In this document: piece after piece, positions 6,088 to 26,452 of the stretch
Position numbering within the stretch: the stretch's first letter is position 1
Layout of the letters: each line of letters opens with the position of its first letter
IMG/VR virus record: IMGVR_UViG_3300023049_000124
Span: 1-30,717 of that record
DNA from: a virus
DNA length: 30,717 bases
Direction: 5' to 3' (one strand)
Translations under genes and position numbers: made by a program
The notes under the pieces: model-generated
Told to the model about the DNA's origin: nothing
The model's input: the letters and a program-made list of their open reading frames with translations, nothing else
Database searches by the model: none

Positions 6088-6272
6088 AATCATCTTAGAA
6101 TGCTGTAGGTATAGGATTTGAATATCCAGTATATAACTTTATTTATGTTATAAGTGAAGTGTATGCTTATAGATAATGGATTGAGTATACAACTATATTA
6201 TTTTCTGAACCGGTATTTTTAGCGTAATTACCGACCTTGATAGCTGTTTCAGTATACAACTTTATTATTCTC
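6088..6272. other. AT-rich gene-free gap between converging operons
   Basis: Composition drops sharply to AT-rich at about 6090-6110. The stretch holds an inverted repeat TATAAC/GTTATA (6132-6137 with 6147-6152), three variants of AGTATACAAC, and the left copy of a 65-bp duplication. I see no convincing gene and no classic stem plus T-run terminator, although this is where transcripts from both sides should end. Confidence 0.6.
6196..6260. repeat. 65-bp direct repeat, left copy
   Basis: Identical to 6552-6616. On the minus strand it encodes TAIKVGNYAKNTGSEN, the C-terminal part of the small membrane-protein gene at 6535-6651, but here it lacks that gene's start and membrane segment. It is therefore a duplicated gene fragment. 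The two copies flank the 80-residue gene at 6273-6515. Confidence 0.95.
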
Positions 6273-6515
6273 TTACAAAAACACGTTATATCTTGCGAAT
6301 AAACCTGCATCTTTTTGCTCATCTGCGGATGCAACAAGACGATAAATATAATCAATTCCGTATTTACTTTTAACTGAAATGTCTTCAACAGCAAGCGTTG
6401 CCGCGCCTATTTCTAATCCATCGCTATTCTCATCTATGAGAATTTTACATTTTTTAGTGCCAGTTTTTGCAGCAAAGTATTTCCTTTTTTTCTTAATTAT
6501 TTCAAACTCAATCAT
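6273..6515 (-). CDS. Hypothetical 80-residue protein between 65-bp repeats
   Basis: I do not recognise a family. The protein starts with a strongly basic stretch (EIIKKKRKYFAAKTGTKKCK) and then has a mixed alpha/beta-like sequence, with no signal peptide or membrane segment. A GAGGAAT ribosome site lies a few bases upstream of the ATG, so it is probably expressed. It is the last gene of the leftward early operon and sits exactly between two identical 65-bp repeats, which suggests it arrived as a small cassette (a moron) or was trapped by a local duplication. Confidence 0.6.
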   Translation of the reverse strand: MIEFEIIKKKRKYFAAKTGTKKCKILIDENSDGLEIGAATLAVEDISVKSKYGIDYIYRLVASADEQKDAGLFARYNVFL

Positions 6516-6534: not shown

Positions 6535-6651
6535 TTAGTTAAAAATTCTCTTATTATTTTCTGAACCGGTATTTTTAGCGTAATTACCGACCTTGATAGC
6601 TGTTTCAGTATACAACCATAAAATAATGAATAGAAGAACTTTTGCTATCAT
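6535..6651 (-). CDS. Small single-pass membrane protein, 38 residues
   Basis: The ATG at 6651 overlaps the stop of the exonuclease gene as ATGA, typical of translational coupling in this phage. Residues about 2-14 (IAKVLLFIILWLY) are a short membrane segment. The remainder (ETAIKVGNYAKNTGSEN, then KRIFN) is polar. I know no family for it. The C-terminal two thirds are the right copy of the 65-bp duplication. The coupling and clean membrane/polar split support a real gene, and its function is unknown. Confidence 0.55.
   Translation of the reverse strand: MIAKVLLFIILWLYTETAIKVGNYAKNTGSENNKRIFN
6552..6616. repeat. 65-bp direct repeat, right copy (inside small membrane gene)
   Basis: Identical to 6196-6260. 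This copy lies inside an intact reading frame and is therefore the likely parent. The left copy is a truncated duplicate. The copies are 356 bp apart, close enough for homologous deletion of the intervening 80-residue gene by the phage's own Bet/Exo pair. Confidence 0.95.
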
Positions 6652-7292
6652 TTCTCATCCAATTCTATAACTGCATCAGCAACTCTATTCCTGATTTGGT
6701 CAATCATAGATTTATCACTTTTAACTCTGTAAATATGAAAATCTCTGTAATAACCACTGCTAGGGTACATATCGTTATAAAGAATATAATCACACCATTT
6801 GCGATCACTGATAAACATCAAAAATTGCATTTGCCACATGTATTGTTTATCAATGCCTGTTTTAATATCCTTATTGCAGGCCTTAACAGATAGGTAATGA
6901 TTACTGTTTGATTTGCACTTGATTTCTATCAACCCATCATTATCAACAAGACCATCAGGTGACCCACCGACAAACTCTGAATAATCAATGAAGCCACATT
7001 CTTCAACGGTTGAAAATGTTTCTTCTTCATAGCGTTGGCGTGCTATGGGTTCAAACTCAACACCACGCTGAATGTGATAATTATTATCAAGGTTAAGATC
7101 ATCATTCACGCCTGTTATTATTTCAGCTTTGATCTTGGCAAGCATTTTAATAGCTGTTAAACCTAGACCATTTCCAGAGCGATCATTAGTCATTAAATCT
7201 GCAATGCGTGAGCTGGTGATCCTCCCCAGTCTAGCCTCTTGCCAATCAATAGAACGCTGGTCAATATGTAGAATTTTTGCTGTTGCTTCCAT
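6648..7292 (-). CDS. exo: YqaJ/lambda-type exonuclease
   Basis: This 214-residue protein is a 5'-3' double-strand DNA exonuclease that makes 3' single strands for annealing by its partner Bet. The YqaJ signature is clear: QRSIDWQEARLGRITSSRIA (residues 12-31), RGVEFEPIARQRYE (76-89, with E79), the metal-binding GSPDGLVD (110-117) and IEIKCK (122-127), then KQYMWQMQFLMFIS (149-162). The catalytic Glu, Asp, Glu and Lys positions are all present, so it is probably active. The ATG overlaps the bet stop (TAATG), fixing the start. It resembles lambda red organisation with bet upstream of exo. Confidence 0.93.
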   Translation of the reverse strand: MEATAKILHIDQRSIDWQEARLGRITSSRIADLMTNDRSGNGLGLTAIKMLAKIKAEIITGVNDDLNLDNNYHIQRGVEFEPIARQRYEEETFSTVEECGFIDYSEFVGGSPDGLVDNDGLIEIKCKSNSNHYLSVKACNKDIKTGIDKQYMWQMQFLMFISDRKWCDYILYNDMYPSSGYYRDFHIYRVKSDKSMIDQIRNRVADAVIELDEK

Positions 7293-7996
7293 TATGCTTC
7301 CTCTTTTGCTTCTAAGTAATTATCAAAATAATGGTCAAAGTCTGAAACAAGTTTTAATATATGTTCAGGTGTTGATTCACGAGTAATTTTATAAAAACCA
7401 GCAAAGTCTTTTTTGTCAGCTTGCTTTGATTCAAGTAATGCATGTAGTTGCTGGCTAGGGGTTAATTCTTTTGCTTTTGGCTGTGATGGTGTTACATACT
7501 TTTCCATTGGTATTTCTTCACCAACATAAGGCAAACCACCAAGCTCAACAGGAAAAGCCATTCTAAAGCTTTGAGCAATACAAACTTTTTTTAACATTGT
7601 TCGTGGCTTAGATTTCCACATGGTATTATTTTGATTGTACTCATCTAGATAAACTTCATGGTAAAAAGGGTCAGACCAATCCTTACGCTTGATTTCAATG
7701 CAAGCTTTTAAGTCATTGCCTGCACCCTCAGTCCAGCACTTCCAACCTGATAATTGCTGGCTCATTTCAGCACGCTTTAAAAACACTTCATAACCAATGA
7801 TGATATTGAAGTTATTGCCATATTTTATTGCATGAATTTCTTTTCGAAGTGGGTTTAAGTTTAAGGATTGAGCTATATTGATAAATTGATTCGCATGAGC
7901 ATCACTAACATTCAATCCTAATGATCTAAGATAATCTATACATATTTGATTGGTAATTTCATTTGATAATAGTGCTATATTGTTTTCTTTGCCCAT
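7292..7996 (-). CDS. bet: Bet/RecT-type single-strand annealing protein
   Basis: This 234-residue protein anneals complementary single strands made by the neighbouring exonuclease. It has the Bet family N-terminal core: NPLRKEIHAIKYGNNFNIII (residues about 52-71), GYEVFLKRAEMSQQLSGW, CIEIKRKDW (about 98-106), and WKSKPRTMLKKVCIAQSFRM-AFP (about 128-150). The C-terminal part is charged and variable, as is usual. A GGAGG site 8 bases upstream of the ATG supports the start. It is the first gene downstream of the relic-rich stretch 8000-8490 in the leftward operon. Confidence 0.93.
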   Translation of the reverse strand: MGKENNIALLSNEITNQICIDYLRSLGLNVSDAHANQFINIAQSLNLNPLRKEIHAIKYGNNFNIIIGYEVFLKRAEMSQQLSGWKCWTEGAGNDLKACIEIKRKDWSDPFYHEVYLDEYNQNNTMWKSKPRTMLKKVCIAQSFRMAFPVELGGLPYVGEEIPMEKYVTPSQPKAKELTPSQQLHALLESKQADKKDFAGFYKITRESTPEHILKLVSDFDHYFDNYLEAKEEA

Positions 7997-8314: not shown

Positions 8315-8433
8315 TGGGGGCAGGTGACAGGATTCGAACCTGCATAGTGACCTTATAGTAGTTTTGCGCAACTCTTGTCTGCTACGTGTCACTCACGTTA
8401 AACGCTGTGGCTTGCCAATGCTCCACACCTGCC
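8315..8433 (-). tRNA. tRNA-like element with canonical ends and aberrant centre
   Basis: Minus strand. GGCAGGTG (from 8433) pairs perfectly with CACCTGCC, giving an 8-bp acceptor stem. The T arm is canonical (GCAGG-TTCGAAT-CCTGT) and an encoded CCA can be read at 8317-8315. T8, G9, A14, GG and A21 of a D arm are present, but only its inner two pairs form. No 5-bp anticodon stem with a 7-base loop is found. Instead the middle has a long stem AGTGAC/GTCACT enclosing a GTAG/CTAC stem. At about 115 bases it is longer than normal tRNAs. The 8+5 arm resembles tRNA-Sec geometry, but a UCA anticodon loop is not visible. It could be a decayed tRNA, an interrupted tRNA or a structural tRNA mimic. Confidence 0.5.
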
Positions 8434-8835: not shown

Positions 8836-9231
8836 TTATGCTTGTAATTTGGTGAAAAATTTACTTAATTGACTGTGTGAATATATATCGCTGAAATTAG
8901 CGAATTCATACATCATTCTGATCACGTTTTCCGGCACATCATCACAGTAAGCATCTATTGCGCTGTATTCTTCAACAGCGTCTATCTCACCGTGATAATT
9001 GATAGCGATACCACCAAGACCGTTGGCCAGTAACTCAGTGTGAAAGCGTTTTAACTGGTTGTATGTAAGCTCGATGTTACTATCAAAACATATAGCCTGG
9101 TGTATGTTTTTCTCTGCGTTATCTTCAACATGTCTTTTGTGTGACATATCGCCTTTAACTAGCTCAACTTGTAGTAATTTATATTCATCGTCAGTGATCT
9201 TTTCTGATTGAGTGATTACCGTGTATTCCAT
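8836..9231 (-). CDS. First gene of the leftward operon, hypothetical 131 residues
   Basis: I recognise no family. The protein is acidic, without signal or membrane segments, and contains a cluster EIDAVEEYSAIDAYCDDVPE (residues about 82-101). Such acidic early proteins are often DNA mimics or host-factor inhibitors, but nothing here proves that. It is the gene immediately downstream of the leftward promoter and operator pair, the place of lambda N or of anti-host genes. ACGGAGCAAGAAA precedes the ATG as a ribosome site. It has no helix-turn-helix pattern, so it is not an obvious repressor. Confidence 0.6.
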   Translation of the reverse strand: MEYTVITQSEKITDDEYKLLQVELVKGDMSHKRHVEDNAEKNIHQAICFDSNIELTYNQLKRFHTELLANGLGGIAINYHGEIDAVEEYSAIDAYCDDVPENVIRMMYEFANFSDIYSHSQLSKFFTKLQA

Positions 9232-9259
9232 TTTCTTGCTCCGTTGTGTTGATGAATAA

Positions 9260-9288
9260 AGTATAATTAATTATACACAACTATGCAA
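9260..9288 (-). promoter_or_regulatory. Leftward early promoter (PL-like)
   Basis: On the minus strand TTGCAT (9288-9283) is followed after 17 bases by TATACT (9265-9260), a good sigma70 pair. The -10 and spacer overlap the perfect 16-bp palindrome at 9261-9276, so a protein bound there would block polymerase. It would drive the operon 9231 to 6273. Confidence 0.6.
9261..9276. promoter_or_regulatory. Operator-like palindrome 1 (left pair, outer)
   Basis: GTATAATTAATTATAC is a perfect 16-bp palindrome, GTATAA-TTAA-TTATAC. It is the best of four sites of the same form in this 340-bp region and overlaps the leftward promoter. The likely ligand is the Cro-like protein encoded at 9623 and, formerly, a lysogenic repressor. 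Confidence 0.7.
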
Positions 9289-9307
9289 TACTATTTACAC
9301 ACTATTT

Positions 9308-9323
9308 GTATAATAATTTATAC
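9308..9323. promoter_or_regulatory. Operator-like palindrome 2 (left pair, inner)
   Basis: GTATAATAATTTATAC has both perfect half-sites, GTATAA and TTATAC, around TAAT. Its start lies exactly 47 bp from site 1, the same distance that separates sites 3 and 4. Confidence 0.7.
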
Positions 9324-9363
9324 ATTTATGATTTATAAGAATAATTTATATGCGAAAATAATT

Positions 9364-9432
9364 AAAAAAAGTTACACCTCAGAATTCAAAGCAAAAGTTG
9401 CTTTGGAAGCCATTAAAGGTGATCAAACAATT
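9364..9432 (+). pseudogene. IS3-family OrfA transposase N-terminal fragment
   Basis: TSEFKAKVALEAIKGDQTI, preceded by KKSY, is the conserved start of IS3-family OrfA (xEFKxKVALEAxKGxxT). The similarity stops after about 23 codons and the continuing frame is low-complexity, so the helix-turn-helix and all of OrfB are missing. It sits between the two operator pairs, where a lambda-type phage would carry its repressor gene. It is a relic of an insertion, probably linked to loss of the repressor. Confidence 0.7.
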
Positions 9433-9530
9433 GGTTATAACCACTATAGGCATCTGTTTGTACATAACCATTGTAAGCTTCATTGTCATAACCCCGTATT
9501 CAGTATTAGTATATCCATAAAAAAGTACAT

Positions 9531-9546
9531 GTATAAAAATTTATAC
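9531..9546. promoter_or_regulatory. Operator-like palindrome 3 (right pair, inner)
   Basis: GTATAAAAATTTATAC contains GTATAA and TTATAC with a 4-base centre AAAT. It lies just upstream of the -35 box of the rightward promoter and could serve repression or activation. Confidence 0.7.
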
Positions 9547-9556
9547 TGACAATGTA

Positions 9557-9584
9557 TTGATATATTTTACATACTATGTATAAT
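9557..9584 (+). promoter_or_regulatory. Rightward early promoter (PR-like)
   Basis: TTGATA (9557-9562), a 16-base spacer and TATAAT (9579-9584) form a strong sigma70 promoter about 40 bases before the Cro-like gene. The -10 box lies inside operator-like site 4, so the promoter should be repressible. It would drive the replication operon. Confidence 0.75.
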
Positions 9585-9593
9585 TAAATTTAC
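9578..9593. promoter_or_regulatory. Operator-like palindrome 4 (right pair, outer)
   Basis: GTATAATTAAATTTAC has a perfect left half and a right half (ATTTAC) with two mismatches to TTATAC. It is the weakest of the four, overlaps the rightward -10 box, and lies 47 bp from site 3. The order of site strength could set the order of binding, as in lambda. Confidence 0.6.
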
Positions 9594-9622
9594 AAACATT
9601 AAACTTGTAAAGAGAATTATGC

Positions 9623-9838
9623 ATGACTACTGAGGAAGGACGTAATTATTTTGGATCATATTCATTACTGTCTAAATTCTGCGGATTGTCTCCAAGGGCT
9701 AGTTGCTATTGGGGCAAATATCCATCACCAAGCCATCAGGCATTCTTAGAGTCAGGAACCAATCAACAGCTAAAAGCAGAGGATTGGGTTTTTAGCCCCA
9801 AGTCCAAAGAGATTAGAAAAGCTTTGAATAAAAAATAA
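9623..9838 (+). CDS. Cro-like helix-turn-helix regulator
   Basis: This 71-residue protein has the Cro/YdaS-type pattern: YFGSYSLLSKFCGLSPRASC-YWGKYPSPS (residues 9-37), a helix-turn-helix followed by the conserved tryptophan, then QAFLESGTNQQLKAED, matching the usual xxLTxGxLKAED end. It is the first gene after the rightward promoter, as cro is in lambdoid phages. It probably binds the GTATAA-N4-TTATAC sites and lowers early transcription. AGAGAA precedes the start, with a weaker out-of-frame ATG at 9619. Confidence 0.75.
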   Translation: MTTEEGRNYFGSYSLLSKFCGLSPRASCYWGKYPSPSHQAFLESGTNQQLKAEDWVFSPKSKEIRKALNKK

Positions 9839-9846
9839 GGTTTTAT

Positions 9847-10635
9847 ATGAAATGGTTTAAACACGATTCAGATGCAAATCAGGATGCGAAGCTTAAAAAA
9901 CTGCGATTAAAATACGGTGCGCAGGGCTATGGAATTTACTGGTACTGCCTTGAATTAATCGCCAGAAATGTTGAAAAACATAATCTTACATTTGAGTTAG
10001 AACACGATGCAGAGCTTATTGCTCATGATTTTAGTCTTTCAAGCGAACTAGTCCAAGATATGATGACATATATGGTCGATCTTGATCTGTTTGAAAATAA
10101 CAGAGGGGCGATAACTTGCCTTAAAATGTCTAAAAGAACCGATGAATATACCCAGAAAGTTCTTAAAAGTATGGACAATATCGGGATAGTGTCGGGAGAT
10201 AATCCGAAAAAGTCCGAATTAAGAGAAGAGAAGAGAAGAGAAGAGAATAGAAGAGAAGAGAATATAAATAGTCGTGCAAGCAGCGACAACACACCTAAAA
10301 ATTATTCTTACTCTGAAATAATTGATTACTTAAACACTAGAGCTGGTACTCAGTACAAAGCATCTACTAAGAAAACTCAACAGCTTATTAATGCACGCTA
10401 CCAAGATGGTTGCACTTTAGAAGACTTTAAAAAATGCATAGATAACAAAGTTAACGAATGGGTTGATGATCCTGAATTCTCTAAATATCTAAGACCTGAA
10501 ACCTTATTCGGTACAAAAATGGAAAGTTATTACAACTGTAATACACCACCAGCCAGCCAGAAAAACATGTCAAAGCTGGAACGTGAATTATATCTAATCA
10601 ATAACACTGAACCACTTATAAACCATCAAAGGTAA
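9847..10635 (+). CDS. Replication initiation protein (DUF4373 / Lin1244-like)
   Basis: This 262-residue protein has residues 1-90 matching the DUF4373 / Lin1244-Lin1753 start (MKWFKHDSDANQDAKLKKLR, then YGAQGYGIYWYCLELIARN), a winged-helix domain found in phage replication initiators. Residues about 160-230 fit the phage conserved C-terminal domain (YSEIIDYLNTRAGTQYKAST, KYLRPETLFG). The linker (about 121-140) is a highly charged EEKRREENRREEN run encoded by a 5-bp DNA repeat. It is followed by the helicase loader and DnaB helicase, so it probably binds the origin, which may lie inside or next to this gene. Confidence 0.85.
   Translation: MKWFKHDSDANQDAKLKKLRLKYGAQGYGIYWYCLELIARNVEKHNLTFELEHDAELIAHDFSLSSELVQDMMTYMVDLDLFENNRGAITCLKMSKRTDEYTQKVLKSMDNIGIVSGDNPKKSELREEKRREENRREENINSRASSDNTPKNYSYSEIIDYLNTRAGTQYKASTKKTQQLINARYQDGCTLEDFKKCIDNKVNEWVDDPEFSKYLRPETLFGTKMESYYNCNTPPASQKNMSKLERELYLINNTEPLINHQR
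10221..10263 (+). repeat. Pentanucleotide AAGAG microsatellite inside replication gene
   Basis: Five AAGAG units (10221-10245), one AATAG, two more AAGAG, then AATA. The unit is 5 bp, so gain or loss of one unit shifts the reading frame and would remove the C-terminal domain of the initiator. It falls in the linker between the two domains and reads EEKRREENRREEN. Confidence 0.9.
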
Positions 10636-10640
10636 TGCAG

Positions 10641-10913
10641 ATGAACAGTAAAGAAATAGGTCAATTAGTCACTTTAGCATTTGGGTGTTTTCAGAATCAA
10701 AATGCATCACCTAGCTTAACTAAAAAATCATGGGAATTTTTAATATCAGACTTACATTATGAATTAGCACTGGAAGCACTGAAATGCGTTTTAAACAAAT
10801 CAAAGTTTTTCCCAACGGTTGCAGAAATTAGAGAGGAAGTTAAAAAAATAGAAAGCATTAGGCCGATAGGAATTCCAATTGAATTTTTAGAAGATAATGG
10901 TGATAAGAAATGA
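10641..10913 (+). CDS. Helicase loader (G39P-like)
   Basis: This 90-residue protein follows the initiator and overlaps the DnaB-type helicase start, the place of helicase loaders. Its pattern fits the phage SPP1 G39P loader family: LVTLAFGCFQNQ, WEFLISDLHYELALEALKCV, then KSKFFPTVAEIREEV, where the Phe-Phe-Pro-Thr-xx-Glu-Ile motif is typical. It would bring the helicase to the initiator complex. AAAGG lies 8 bases before the ATG at 10641, which I prefer to the ATG at 10635 in the TAATG overlap, which would sit too close to it. Confidence 0.7.
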   Translation: MNSKEIGQLVTLAFGCFQNQNASPSLTKKSWEFLISDLHYELALEALKCVLNKSKFFPTVAEIREEVKKIESIRPIGIPIEFLEDNGDKK

Positions 10914-12175
10914 ATCAACTAGAAAATCATAATTGTGAAGCTGCCGTTTTGGTTGTCATGTTTGATAAAAAGAAATATCAGCAAATAGGTGTCAGCCAAT
11001 TAAAACTATCATGTTTCACTAACCCATCGCATATAAAAATATTTCAAGCATTCAAAAAGGCTACGACTGAAAACTTAAATATTGACGAAGTTATGTTGTC
11101 TGACTTATCCAGCGTGAGCATGGAAGAGATAGAAGCTTTCAGGGGCTACAACGTATCAGTGCCAGAAAACTTTAACACTAGGGTAAAAGCATTGCTGGAT
11201 TTAGATAAAAAGCGTAAGCTAATCAATTACATTAAAACCGATCTATTTAATTCATTAAGTAATAATTTTAATGATCTGGCTAATAATTTAAACGCTGAAA
11301 TAACAAAACTACACCAGGATAAACAAAGCGAAATATCAAAACCGATTTGTGATAATGCCGATTATTGGACTGATATTTTATTTCAGAACATCGAGCAAAG
11401 TGCACATAAGCCAATGCCAATTGAGAGATTTAAGTTATTAAATTCAATCTTAAACGGCATTCAAAAAGGCAGGCTTTATGTTTTAGCTGGTGAGTCTGGA
11501 TTAGGCAAAACAGCACTAGCGATCAACATAGCTGTAAATTTAGCCAAGAATTACAACGTATATTTCAACTGTCTTGAGATGCCATCTGTTAGCTTGCTAG
11601 AGCGTGCTATTGCTGATGAATGTAATTTAGATTCTTACACAATACAAAAAAGACGTATTAATCCAGAACATAAAGAAAACATCAGGAAGACAATCAAATC
11701 ACTTAGAATTACATTTGAAGATAGCAATGATACAAACATAGATAATTTATTGCTTTCACTTCAATCGATGCATTCAGTAGACCCATTTGATGCCATATTT
11801 TTAGATTACTTAAATTTATTCAACGATAAATCCAAAAAGCACGACAGCAACGCTTATGAAATTGCAGAGATTACCCAAAAGTTAAAAGTCTTTGCAGTTG
11901 AAAATAATATAGCAGTTGTCTTATTGGCGCAGTTCAACGCCAGCAAGAAGTCAGACATTAGGGCAGAAGCTACAGCGTTAAAAGGTTCAACATCAATCAG
12001 GCAAGACGCTGACGTTATTTTGTTAATTGATAAAGAAAAACCAGACCCAAGGCCAACCGAAGATATGTTGCTAATCATCGAAAAAAACAGAGCTGGCAAG
12101 CGTGCAGATATTCGAATGACCTATGAGGGCAACCATTTGAGATTTATTGAAAAGGTGAATCAATATGCAAACTGA
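10910..12175 (+). CDS. dnaB: DnaB-type replicative DNA helicase
   Basis: This 421-residue protein is the hexameric 5'-3' fork helicase. It has a Walker A GESGLGKT (residues 194-201), the catalytic Glu in NCLEMP (E223), Walker B AIFLDYLNL (295-303), the sensor VVLLAQFN (336-343) and the DnaB motif LKGSTSIRQDADVIL (357-371). The N-terminal part (about 1-140) is the DnaB N-terminal domain in weaker form. The length is a little shorter than cellular DnaB (about 470), as is usual for phage versions. The start overlaps the loader stop by 4 bases. Confidence 0.93.
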   Translation: MNQLENHNCEAAVLVVMFDKKKYQQIGVSQLKLSCFTNPSHIKIFQAFKKATTENLNIDEVMLSDLSSVSMEEIEAFRGYNVSVPENFNTRVKALLDLDKKRKLINYIKTDLFNSLSNNFNDLANNLNAEITKLHQDKQSEISKPICDNADYWTDILFQNIEQSAHKPMPIERFKLLNSILNGIQKGRLYVLAGESGLGKTALAINIAVNLAKNYNVYFNCLEMPSVSLLERAIADECNLDSYTIQKRRINPEHKENIRKTIKSLRITFEDSNDTNIDNLLLSLQSMHSVDPFDAIFLDYLNLFNDKSKKHDSNAYEIAEITQKLKVFAVENNIAVVLLAQFNASKKSDIRAEATALKGSTSIRQDADVILLIDKEKPDPRPTEDMLLIIEKNRAGKRADIRMTYEGNHLRFIEKVNQYAN

Positions 12176-13805: not shown

Positions 13806-14057
13806 ATGAGCAAAGGAAGAACACTATGCAGATTAGCAAGAAAAAAAACAGGAATGAATATGTCAGACTTTGCCAGTTTTTGCGGTTACAAGTCATATAA
13901 AAACATATCAGGAATAGAGCAAAGCAAGACATACCCAAGCCCTCAAGCAAATTTATTGTTTAAGTTGATTATTAATTCTGACCAAGCACTTGAGTTATTA
14001 ATCAGAAACTTTATTGAGAACAAAATCGGAGTGTCAACTAAATGCTCAAAAAACTAA
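13806..14057 (+). CDS. Small XRE/Cro-C1-type helix-turn-helix protein
   Basis: This 83-residue protein has an HTH-like stretch at residues about 5-55: LCRLARKKTGMNMSDFASFC, then GYKSYKNISGIEQSKTYPSP, with the Ile-x-x-x-Glu-x-x-x-x-x-Pro-Ser pattern common in XRE proteins. It begins directly after the previous stop. With the Cro-like protein at 9623 it is the second candidate regulator of the right operon, possibly controlling late genes. The HTH assignment is by eye. Confidence 0.55.
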   Translation: MSKGRTLCRLARKKTGMNMSDFASFCGYKSYKNISGIEQSKTYPSPQANLLFKLIINSDQALELLIRNFIENKIGVSTKCSKN

Positions 14058-24462: not shown

Positions 24463-24941
24463 ACGAACCTCTCAGACTTACAGCCCTGTTTATTCGTGAC
24501 CTGCTAGGATACAACGAGCAGCTAATCCGCATCGGCCGTCAGAATTATGACATCACAGATTTTACCATCGGATACATAGGCGTTGATTCCCTCGGCGCGG
24601 CAAGACGATTAGCCAGCGGCGAGCAATACGACGGCACCCTTGAGCAGATGACATACCAGCAACAGTGGATCGCACCCGTCACAATTTCATTTTATGGATC
24701 CGACGCGTGGGCCACAGCAACAACTTTTGCCTTGTTTATTCAATCGCAAAAAGCCCTTGAGCTTCAGGAGTCGTTGGAGATTGGTGTTTTTCAGGCGTCC
24801 GGCCTCACAGATGTTAAAATGCTCACCGGCCAGCAATACGGCGAGCGGCAAGAGCTAACCCTGAATGTACGATATGCAACGTCTGCAAATGTTGATACAC
24901 TCAGAATAGACACAGCAATAACAGACATATCAACTGATTAG
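24459..24941 (+). CDS. Tail/neck terminator-like protein
   Basis: This 160-residue protein lies directly before the sheath gene, where the tail terminator (completion) ring of contractile phages is encoded. The sequence YDGTLEQMTYQQQWIAPVTI (residues about 53-72), then DAWATATTFALFIQSQKALE, and a final beta strand REQELTLNVRYA-like segment are consistent with phage gp12-like neck terminators. A 4-base overlap couples it to the preceding gene. Confidence 0.65.
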   Translation: MNEPLRLTALFIRDLLGYNEQLIRIGRQNYDITDFTIGYIGVDSLGAARRLASGEQYDGTLEQMTYQQQWIAPVTISFYGSDAWATATTFALFIQSQKALELQESLEIGVFQASGLTDVKMLTGQQYGERQELTLNVRYATSANVDTLRIDTAITDISTD

Positions 24942-24952
24942 GAGATTAACCA

Positions 24953-26452
24953 ATGAGCGTAAGTATTAAAAATGTCGTAACTGTCACCCTCTTGCAAGGC
25001 GGTGCCCTTGCGATGGCGGACAATCCTAACGTTGTCGCAATGATGACCAGCGAACAGCAAGGCCCACTTTCGTCAGCAAGTCGATACCGTATTTATTCAG
25101 AGGCGGCAAGTGTGGCGGCAGACTTTGGCACAGCAAGCCAAGCGTATGATTTCGCGTTATCGTTTTTTGCAACCCAACCCAACCCAACCAACGCAGGCGG
25201 ATTCCTGGTTATCGGATTCTGGCGCGGCGCTGATGAGGAAGTGGCAGCAACCGCAGCAAGCTTAAACGGTGCTCAGTTGTCCGAGGCCACGGTAGTGAGT
25301 GCATTGCAGCAAGTCGCAGACGGGGCGTTTGATGTTGACATTGACGGCGTAACCGAAAACCTGACAGCTCTGGACTTCCAAGCAACAACTACGCTGGATG
25401 AAATTGCGGTTGTTATCGACACGGCATTGACCGGCGGCACGGCAGCGGTGGTTGATCAACGCATTGTCATCACCAGCTCGACCACAGGAGCGACAAGCCT
25501 GATTACGTTCGCCACCGACCCCGGCACCGGAACATTCATCGGCCAGACTTTGGCACTGACAACCGGTTCAGGTGGCTTCCTGACTCAAGGCGCGGCGGCT
25601 GAAACGCTAAGCGCCGAAACCAAACTTGAGGGAATCACGGAACTGCGCGGCCAAGTTAAGTTCCGAGGCGCAATGTTCATCGACAATCCAACGGACGAAG
25701 AGTCTAAGACGCTTGCAGAATGGGGGCAAGCAAACGACGTGCTTCAGTATGACGTTTTCGAAAGTCCAACCAACTTGCTTGTTGATCCAACCAACGTGGT
25801 CTGGGATATCAAGCTGTCGAGCCTGACCAACTACCGGATGCTGTACAGCAAGGCGGGCAACCGCAAACTGGCGGCTTCGTACATGGCTCGGGCGCACACG
25901 GTTAATTTTGCGGCTGAGAACTCAGCGTTGACCATGCACCTCAAAGAGCTCTCTGTTGCGGCGGAAGAATACAGCCAGACGGAAGTCAACAACGCAAAGA
26001 CCGTTGGCCTTGACTTATACACCACGATCAAATTAACACCGGCTATCCTGACCAGCGGGGCGAATAATTTCACTGATGAGCGCTATAATCTCATTGCGTA
26101 TGTGGATTTCTTGCAAATCGACATGTACAACCTGCTCAAGCTGACAGGCACCAAGATTCCGCAAACACGAAGAGGCGTTAATCAACTGATCGATCAGGCC
26201 GAGAAAACAACCCGGCAGTTTGTCCGGGCAGGAGTAGCAGCCCCAGGAACATGGTCCAGCCCTGATTACTTCGGCAACCGCGAGACGTTCGAGCAGAGCA
26301 TCATCAATAACGGCTTCTACTGGTTGGCCGGATCTTTGGCTGACCAGGCGCAGAACTCACGAGAGGCCCGCGAGAGCCCAGTTTTGCAAGGAGCTGTAAA
26401 AATGGCGGGCGCTATTCACTCGGTCGATCTTATCGTTGTCGTTAACCGATAA
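24953..26452 (+). CDS. Contractile tail sheath protein (DUF3383-like)
   Basis: This 499-residue protein resembles the DUF3383 sheath family of small myophages. The N-terminus (MSVSIKNVVTVTLLQGGALA and YRIYSEAASVAADFGTASQA-YDFALSFFATQP) is the characteristic part. The middle (residues about 90-215) is a Gly/Thr-rich insertion exposed on the outside, and the C-terminal half (YNLIAYVDFLQIDMYNLLKL, then IDQAEKTTRQFVRAGVAAPG) makes the contractile core. A strong ribosome site (AGGAGATTAACC) precedes the start. The presence of a sheath fixes the myovirus form. Confidence 0.88.
   Translation: MSVSIKNVVTVTLLQGGALAMADNPNVVAMMTSEQQGPLSSASRYRIYSEAASVAADFGTASQAYDFALSFFATQPNPTNAGGFLVIGFWRGADEEVAATAASLNGAQLSEATVVSALQQVADGAFDVDIDGVTENLTALDFQATTTLDEIAVVIDTALTGGTAAVVDQRIVITSSTTGATSLITFATDPGTGTFIGQTLALTTGSGGFLTQGAAAETLSAETKLEGITELRGQVKFRGAMFIDNPTDEESKTLAEWGQANDVLQYDVFESPTNLLVDPTNVVWDIKLSSLTNYRMLYSKAGNRKLAASYMARAHTVNFAAENSALTMHLKELSVAAEEYSQTEVNNAKTVGLDLYTTIKLTPAILTSGANNFTDERYNLIAYVDFLQIDMYNLLKLTGTKIPQTRRGVNQLIDQAEKTTRQFVRAGVAAPGTWSSPDYFGNRETFEQSIINNGFYWLAGSLADQAQNSREARESPVLQGAVKMAGAIHSVDLIVVVNR

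Follow-up and report, generated by a model that had tools for sequence, protein, structure and literature searches.

How are the early genes of a phage controlled when their control region has the layout of a lambdoid immunity region and holds no repressor gene? The question is raised by the window (the whole stretch of DNA analyzed here, 30,717 bases), in which a leftward and a rightward early operon diverge from two pairs of operators and a Cro-like gene heads the rightward operon. Our answer is that the region probably serves the early genes of a phage unable to keep the prophage state, and that it derives from a CI/Cro immunity region.

The window represents a closed genome, given that it starts and ends with the same 127 bases (leaving a unit of 30,590 bp) and that, in the ORF list, the tail gene order runs on across both ends. 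Because of this exact terminal repeat and the continuous tail gene order, genes that are absent from the record can be taken as meaningfully absent. The features of the early region are listed here (those with no strand are operators and the spacer).

6648–7292, minus strand: YqaJ exonuclease, leftward operon (Pfam)
7292–7996, minus strand: RecT-type annealing protein, leftward operon (Pfam)
8836–9231, minus strand: first gene of the leftward early operon, 131 aa (ORF list; no Pfam or phrog family found)
9261–9276: outer left operator, GTATAATTAATTATAC, a perfect palindrome that contains a leftward TATAAT
9308–9323: inner left operator, GTATAATAATTTATAC, exact fit to GTATA-N6-TATAC
9324–9530: spacer, 207 bp, with no repressor-size ORF; the place of the CI-type gene in the temperate type
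9364–9435, plus strand: IS3-family OrfA-like fragment, 24 codons, approximately the first quarter, KKSYTSEFKAKVALEAIKGDQTIG (tblastn, DNA identity, profile)
9531–9546: inner right operator, GTATAAAAATTTATAC, exact fit to GTATA-N6-TATAC
9557–9584, plus strand: predicted rightward promoter-like site, TTGATA-16-TATAAT, 11 of 12 consensus bases
9578–9593: outer right operator, GTATAATTAAATTTAC, near-palindromic, one arm imperfect
9623–9838, plus strand: P22/N15-type Cro-like gene, 71 aa
9847–12175, plus strand: rightward early operon downstream of cro, comprising the next three genes
9847–10635, plus strand: DUF4373/Phg_2220_C replication gene
10635–10913, plus strand: helicase-loader-like gene
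10910–12175, plus strand: DnaB-like helicase

The original prediction placed operator pairs on both sides of the diverging operons, and this part of it holds: there are four sites, and they are unique in the genome. The pattern GTATAAWWWWTTATAC, which is close to the consensus of the four, has four matches in 30.7 kb when up to two mismatches are allowed, all of them within 9261–9593, compared with a mean of 0.14 and a maximum of 2 in 100 shuffles of the window. The stricter form GTATA-N6-TATAC fits three of the four sites exactly (those at 9261, 9308, and 9531) and the site at 9578 nearly so. Only 0.01 exact occurrences are expected in the window, and 0.005 if the local AT-rich composition is used, in which case three were never reached in 20,000 simulations. 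The geometry is regular, with a start-to-start spacing of 47 bp in the left pair as well as in the right pair, and 29 bp from the outer operator to the start codon both of the left gene and of cro. On the right, the −10 of the promoter-like site sits inside the outer operator; on the left, the TATAAT within the outer operator is not accompanied by a good −35. Palindromic operators thus appear to lie at two divergent early promoters, as is expected of lambdoid phages, with a promoter-like site on the right and a weak one on the left. The immunity regions of lambda, P22, and N15 are similar in having palindromic operators at divergent early promoters and a Cro-type protein, whereas the window differs from them in having no CI and in having its operators arranged as two mirror pairs, with a 47-bp spacing, in place of close triplets. 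The related Cro of PY54 binds a 16-bp palindrome (PMC4488713), in line with the length of the operators in the window.

The gene to the right of the operators had been called Cro-like, and the assignment survives closer scrutiny. By sequence and profile, its product belongs to the P22/N15-type Cro proteins: it matches phrog_409 (E 1.5e-5), and a profile built from four proteins (the window Cro plus three relatives) matches, among PDB sequences, P22 Cro (E 2.4e-12) as well as Xylella Cro and N15 Cro. The Pfam family P22_Cro falls below its cut-off (E 0.16), and the protein on its own has no phmmer matches in the PDB. The predicted structure is helical and of modest confidence (pLDDT 68), and the best PDB folds are those of N15 and P22 Cro, at E values (0.06–0.07) that are not significant. 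We accept the product as a putative, diverged P22/N15-type Cro. The window Cro, RecT, first leftward, and DnaB genes have no close relatives in IMG/VR, and the cro gene has none in genome collections either. Because the early region, its replication gene excepted, lacks close relatives in the collections, the genome is considered mosaic. At 30.6 kb, it is also clearly shorter than the longer of its capsid relatives (36–46 kb).

No repressor gene lies between the inner operators, as had been predicted. Within 9324–9530, there is no ORF of the size of a repressor (the longest on the minus strand is 36 aa), and no cI remnant is visible. Neither a CI-type HTH (HTH_3) nor an S24 peptidase was found in the closed genome, and the claim that there is no integrase anywhere is borne out by the absence of tyrosine integrase (PF00589) and serine recombinase (PF00239). 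The window is accordingly without the CI-type gene between operators that defines a lambdoid immunity region, and without the integrase or serine recombinase of an integrating temperate phage. What the spacer does contain, again as had been claimed, is a fragment of IS3 OrfA, 24 codons long. A tblastn search of plasmids with KKSYTSEFKAKVALEAIKGDQTIG gave E 2e-3, the best matches being annotated IS3 transposases, and the DNA of 9364–9435 is 75%–81% identical to the starts of IS3 orfA genes. An OrfA profile run against the six-frame translation of the window gave E 2.4e-10, a value that is partly circular because the profile was built from such matches. Pfam HTH_Tnp_1 did not detect the piece, which is very short, and the exact peptide does not occur in representative genomes. 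An IS3 element would have OrfA and OrfB between terminal inverted repeats; here, there are only about 24 codons from the OrfA start, so 9364–9435 is a scrap of IS3 OrfA and there is no element.

The strongest pointer to the history of the region is a temperate phage type that uses the same operator code. The check proposed with the original prediction, for relatives in which such operators enclose a CI-type gene, came out positive in G066 (IMGVR_UViG_3300017598_000429, locus L063) and L307 (IMGVR_UViG_3300025133_007499), two contigs that represent one phage type. In L063, GTATA-N6-TATAC occurs exactly three times (0.02 expected), and the order is one operator beside the leftward operon, the CI-type HTH gene, two operators, and a P22-type Cro. 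The arrangement of operators, HTH repressor, and cro is the same in L307, where the arms of the operators are kept and the middle six bases differ from those of L063 in two of the three. G066 carries a tyrosine integrase. The genes of L307 include DUF4224 (excisionase-like), a weak integrase-like gene, the HTH repressor, Erf, and a YqaJ exonuclease, and its Cro is above the P22_Cro cut-off. The repressors of the two loci (within L063 3122–3924 and L307 1567–2369) are 147–149 aa long, with no S24 domain recognized.

Among the 219 loci compared, the exact GTATA-N6-TATAC was present only in the window and in the G066 contig. It should be noted that the relaxed operator pattern was picked after L063 had been seen. 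As a check on this choice, we counted, with no word preset, every combination of palindromic 5-mer core and spacing that the gaps contain, and the top repeated word was GTATA with a spacing of 6, three times, in both the window and the L063 gap (0.005–0.0065 expected from the local composition; three never in 20,000 simulations). When IMG/VR was scanned for pairs of such sites 37–66 bp apart, 87 contigs were returned, and a clear Cro-like gene is nearby only in that of G066 and in L307. Because most of the 87 have no Cro-like gene nearby, a pair of such sites is by itself no evidence of a switch.

The window and the temperate type share GTATA-N6-TATAC beside the left operon and cro, a P22-type Cro at the head of the rightward operon, and a YqaJ exonuclease in a like-placed left operon (32% identical between the window and L307). 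The distance from the outer operator to the flanking gene is 29 bp on either side in the window; on the left and right, respectively, it is 29 and 35 bp in L063 and 41 and 35 bp in L307. The right operator pair is spaced at 47 bp in the window versus 51 bp in L063. Unlike the window, the temperate type has the repressor gene between its operators as well as integration genes; it has one left operator where the window has two, and its virion genes are different. The Cro proteins are 23% identical. Homology of the control DNA outside the operators was considered and rejected: three-way alignments of the control regions, which are AT-rich, look suggestive, but local alignments of the window arms with L063 and L307 are no better than those of shuffled sequences (P ∼0.09–0.23). 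The link between the window and the temperate type rests on the operator code, the placement of the operators, and the gene order.

A second group of relatives has Cro and no CI. Searches of IMG/VR gave 111 relatives by the replication gene (80 kept) and 75 by the capsid gene, and an S24-type CI occurs in just two of 47 of these relative records (G069 and G070). A CI-type gene adjoins cro or the replication gene in three contigs (G066, G069, and G070), all of which have a tyrosine integrase. In five others (G043, G027, G067, G063, and G068), a P22/phrog_409-type Cro stands at the divergence of the left and right operons, and no CI, tyrosine integrase, or serine recombinase was found. Two of these five contigs share the capsid type of the window; one of the two, G027, is closed (123-bp terminal repeat), whereas the other CI-less contigs may be fragments. 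Pantoea phage PdC23 (OL396571) likewise resembles the window in its leftward recombination operon, Cro-like regulator, and DUF4373 gene, with no CI in its 450-bp gap and no integrase found; it differs in having an unrelated virion and no repeated GTATA-N6-TATAC sites. Cro without CI is therefore a common state in the neighborhood of the window phage. Repeated operators were also sought in the gaps of the five CI-less contigs, and were rejected: single palindromes occur in four of the five (P ∼0.05–0.11), none of them repeated. As a separate observation, the capsid relative G009 (locus L161) has a serine recombinase at 24761–25075 (E 3e-23), the sole integration-type gene among the capsid relatives tested.

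From these CI-less relatives, it could be argued that control by Cro alone is long-standing or original, that the phage is one of a broad class with no recognized integrase in which a Cro-like autorepressor sits where the early operons diverge, that no cI was ever lost, that the IS3 piece in the spacer is later debris, and that the operator code is merely a shared type of Cro site. The five contigs and PdC23 all fit this account, as does the fact that tyrosine integrase was found in none of 44 capsid relatives, the group to which the closed genome of G027 belongs. However, PdC23 excepted, the gaps of the CI-less relatives are short (15–141 bp) and, unlike the window, none of these relatives repeats the operator; two operator pairs that stand 207 bp apart fit the arrangement expected where a gene was formerly present; and, among the 219 loci, the operator code is shared with the CI-bearing type only. 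The CI-less relatives taken by themselves suggest that no gene was lost; the operator match with G066 and L307 speaks against this view, which we regard as unlikely. A loss of cI, whether or not an IS3-like element took part, accounts for the scrap and for the two spaced pairs of operators, and acquisition of a module that already lacked CI would explain the CI-less relatives. Given how many CI-less Cro phages are nearby, the loss need not be recent in the lineage of the window: an old loss is possible, as is arrival of the module without cI. Overall, the data favor, with moderate confidence, derivation from a CI/Cro region, and neither the date nor the agent of the loss follows from them.

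Two further accounts would remove the puzzle altogether. The phage might still be temperate, with a repressor encoded elsewhere that binds the operators and a prophage that is maintained although the phage itself has no integrase. A candidate would be the HTH-like protein at 13806–14057 (phrog_2104, E 3.4e-4; HTH_3, E 0.036), but it has only 83 aa and no recognized dimerization domain, is encoded far from the operators with no operator-type sites near it, and has weak matches; no S24, integrase, or resolvase accompanies it in the genome. We judged it unlikely to be a hidden repressor, and consider a still-temperate phage very improbable. Alternatively, cI could have been dropped, or the gap made chimeric, during metagenome assembly. 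No sister record crosses this junction in the collections searched, and 127, the length of the terminal repeat, is a common assembler word length. Against an artefact, the positions of the operators relative to their genes are preserved on both sides, and an unbroken order of tail genes closes the genome, so we give this explanation hardly any weight.

Under the preferred reading, in which the region derives from a CI/Cro immunity region, each of the two divergent early promoters would carry a pair of 16-bp GTATA-N6-TATAC operators, and Cro made from the rightward operon would probably bind these and turn down both early operons in lytic growth. The CI-type HTH repressor gene of the temperate form would be the gene now absent from between the inner operators, with the IS3 OrfA scrap in its place, and presumably the prophage state cannot be held without CI. 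We infer from the sequence that the sites are bound, that the promoters are active, and that the phage is sensitive to CI; with its operators intact, it should remain subject to shut-off by a related CI. The original prediction went further, and saw a natural change from temperate to virulent life through insertion and deletion. Such a change gains from the existence of a temperate type with the same operator code; that it happened in this phage itself is unproven, and CI-less relatives are abundant. The OrfA scrap agrees with the route, whereas there is no trace of cI and the flanks cannot be significantly aligned. The old operators are indeed still in place, although it is more likely that they are in use by Cro than that they are mere relics. 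That the repressor was lost via IS damage and deletion with the operators still working, so that the phage is lytic on Cro alone and yet repressible by the CI of its temperate relatives, is possible, if doubtful. If true, the phage would be nature's equivalent of a lambda clear mutant, maintained as a free lineage.

Temperate phages are known to become virulent by losing lysogeny, but what then becomes of their operators is rarely visible; here, it can be read. Lactobacillus phage phiFSW turned virulent by IS insertion. Phages that form no lysogens and yet have parts of a lysogeny module are already known, and what the window adds is unusually readable operators. Staphylococcus aureus phage SA97 forms no lysogens, is related to temperate phages, and lacks cI; unlike the window, it is also missing cro and has kept its integrase (PMC4632378). 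O. oeni phage OE33PA, again related to temperate phages and without lysogens, differs from the window in having kept both repressor and integrase (PMC6256464). For neither of these is there a comparison of operators with a temperate relative, as there is for the window. Remnants of the lysogeny module occur in S. thermophilus pac phages (PMC6213268). The match of the operator code to that of a temperate relative leads to a prediction, namely that the repressor of this relative still acts on the window phage. In addition, the comparison suggests that Cro without CI or a recognized integrase is frequent in related environmental phages, so that Cro may serve lytic growth in its own right.

Some other features of the window deserve mention. 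The small HTH gene at 13806–14057 lies toward the end of the rightward early operon, and its product is possibly a late regulator. A tRNA-like element of ∼114–118 nt lies on the minus strand at 8316–8433, with a 7-bp acceptor-like stem, a T-arm-like GGTTCGAATCC, and a CCA-like end; it scores 24.7 bits with the Rfam tRNA model (cut-off 29) and is not called by ARAGORN. Lastly, an exact 65-bp direct repeat (6196–6260 and 6552–6616) flanks a small leftward ORF (6273–6515), and the repeats and the ORF could be a mobile or excisable cassette.
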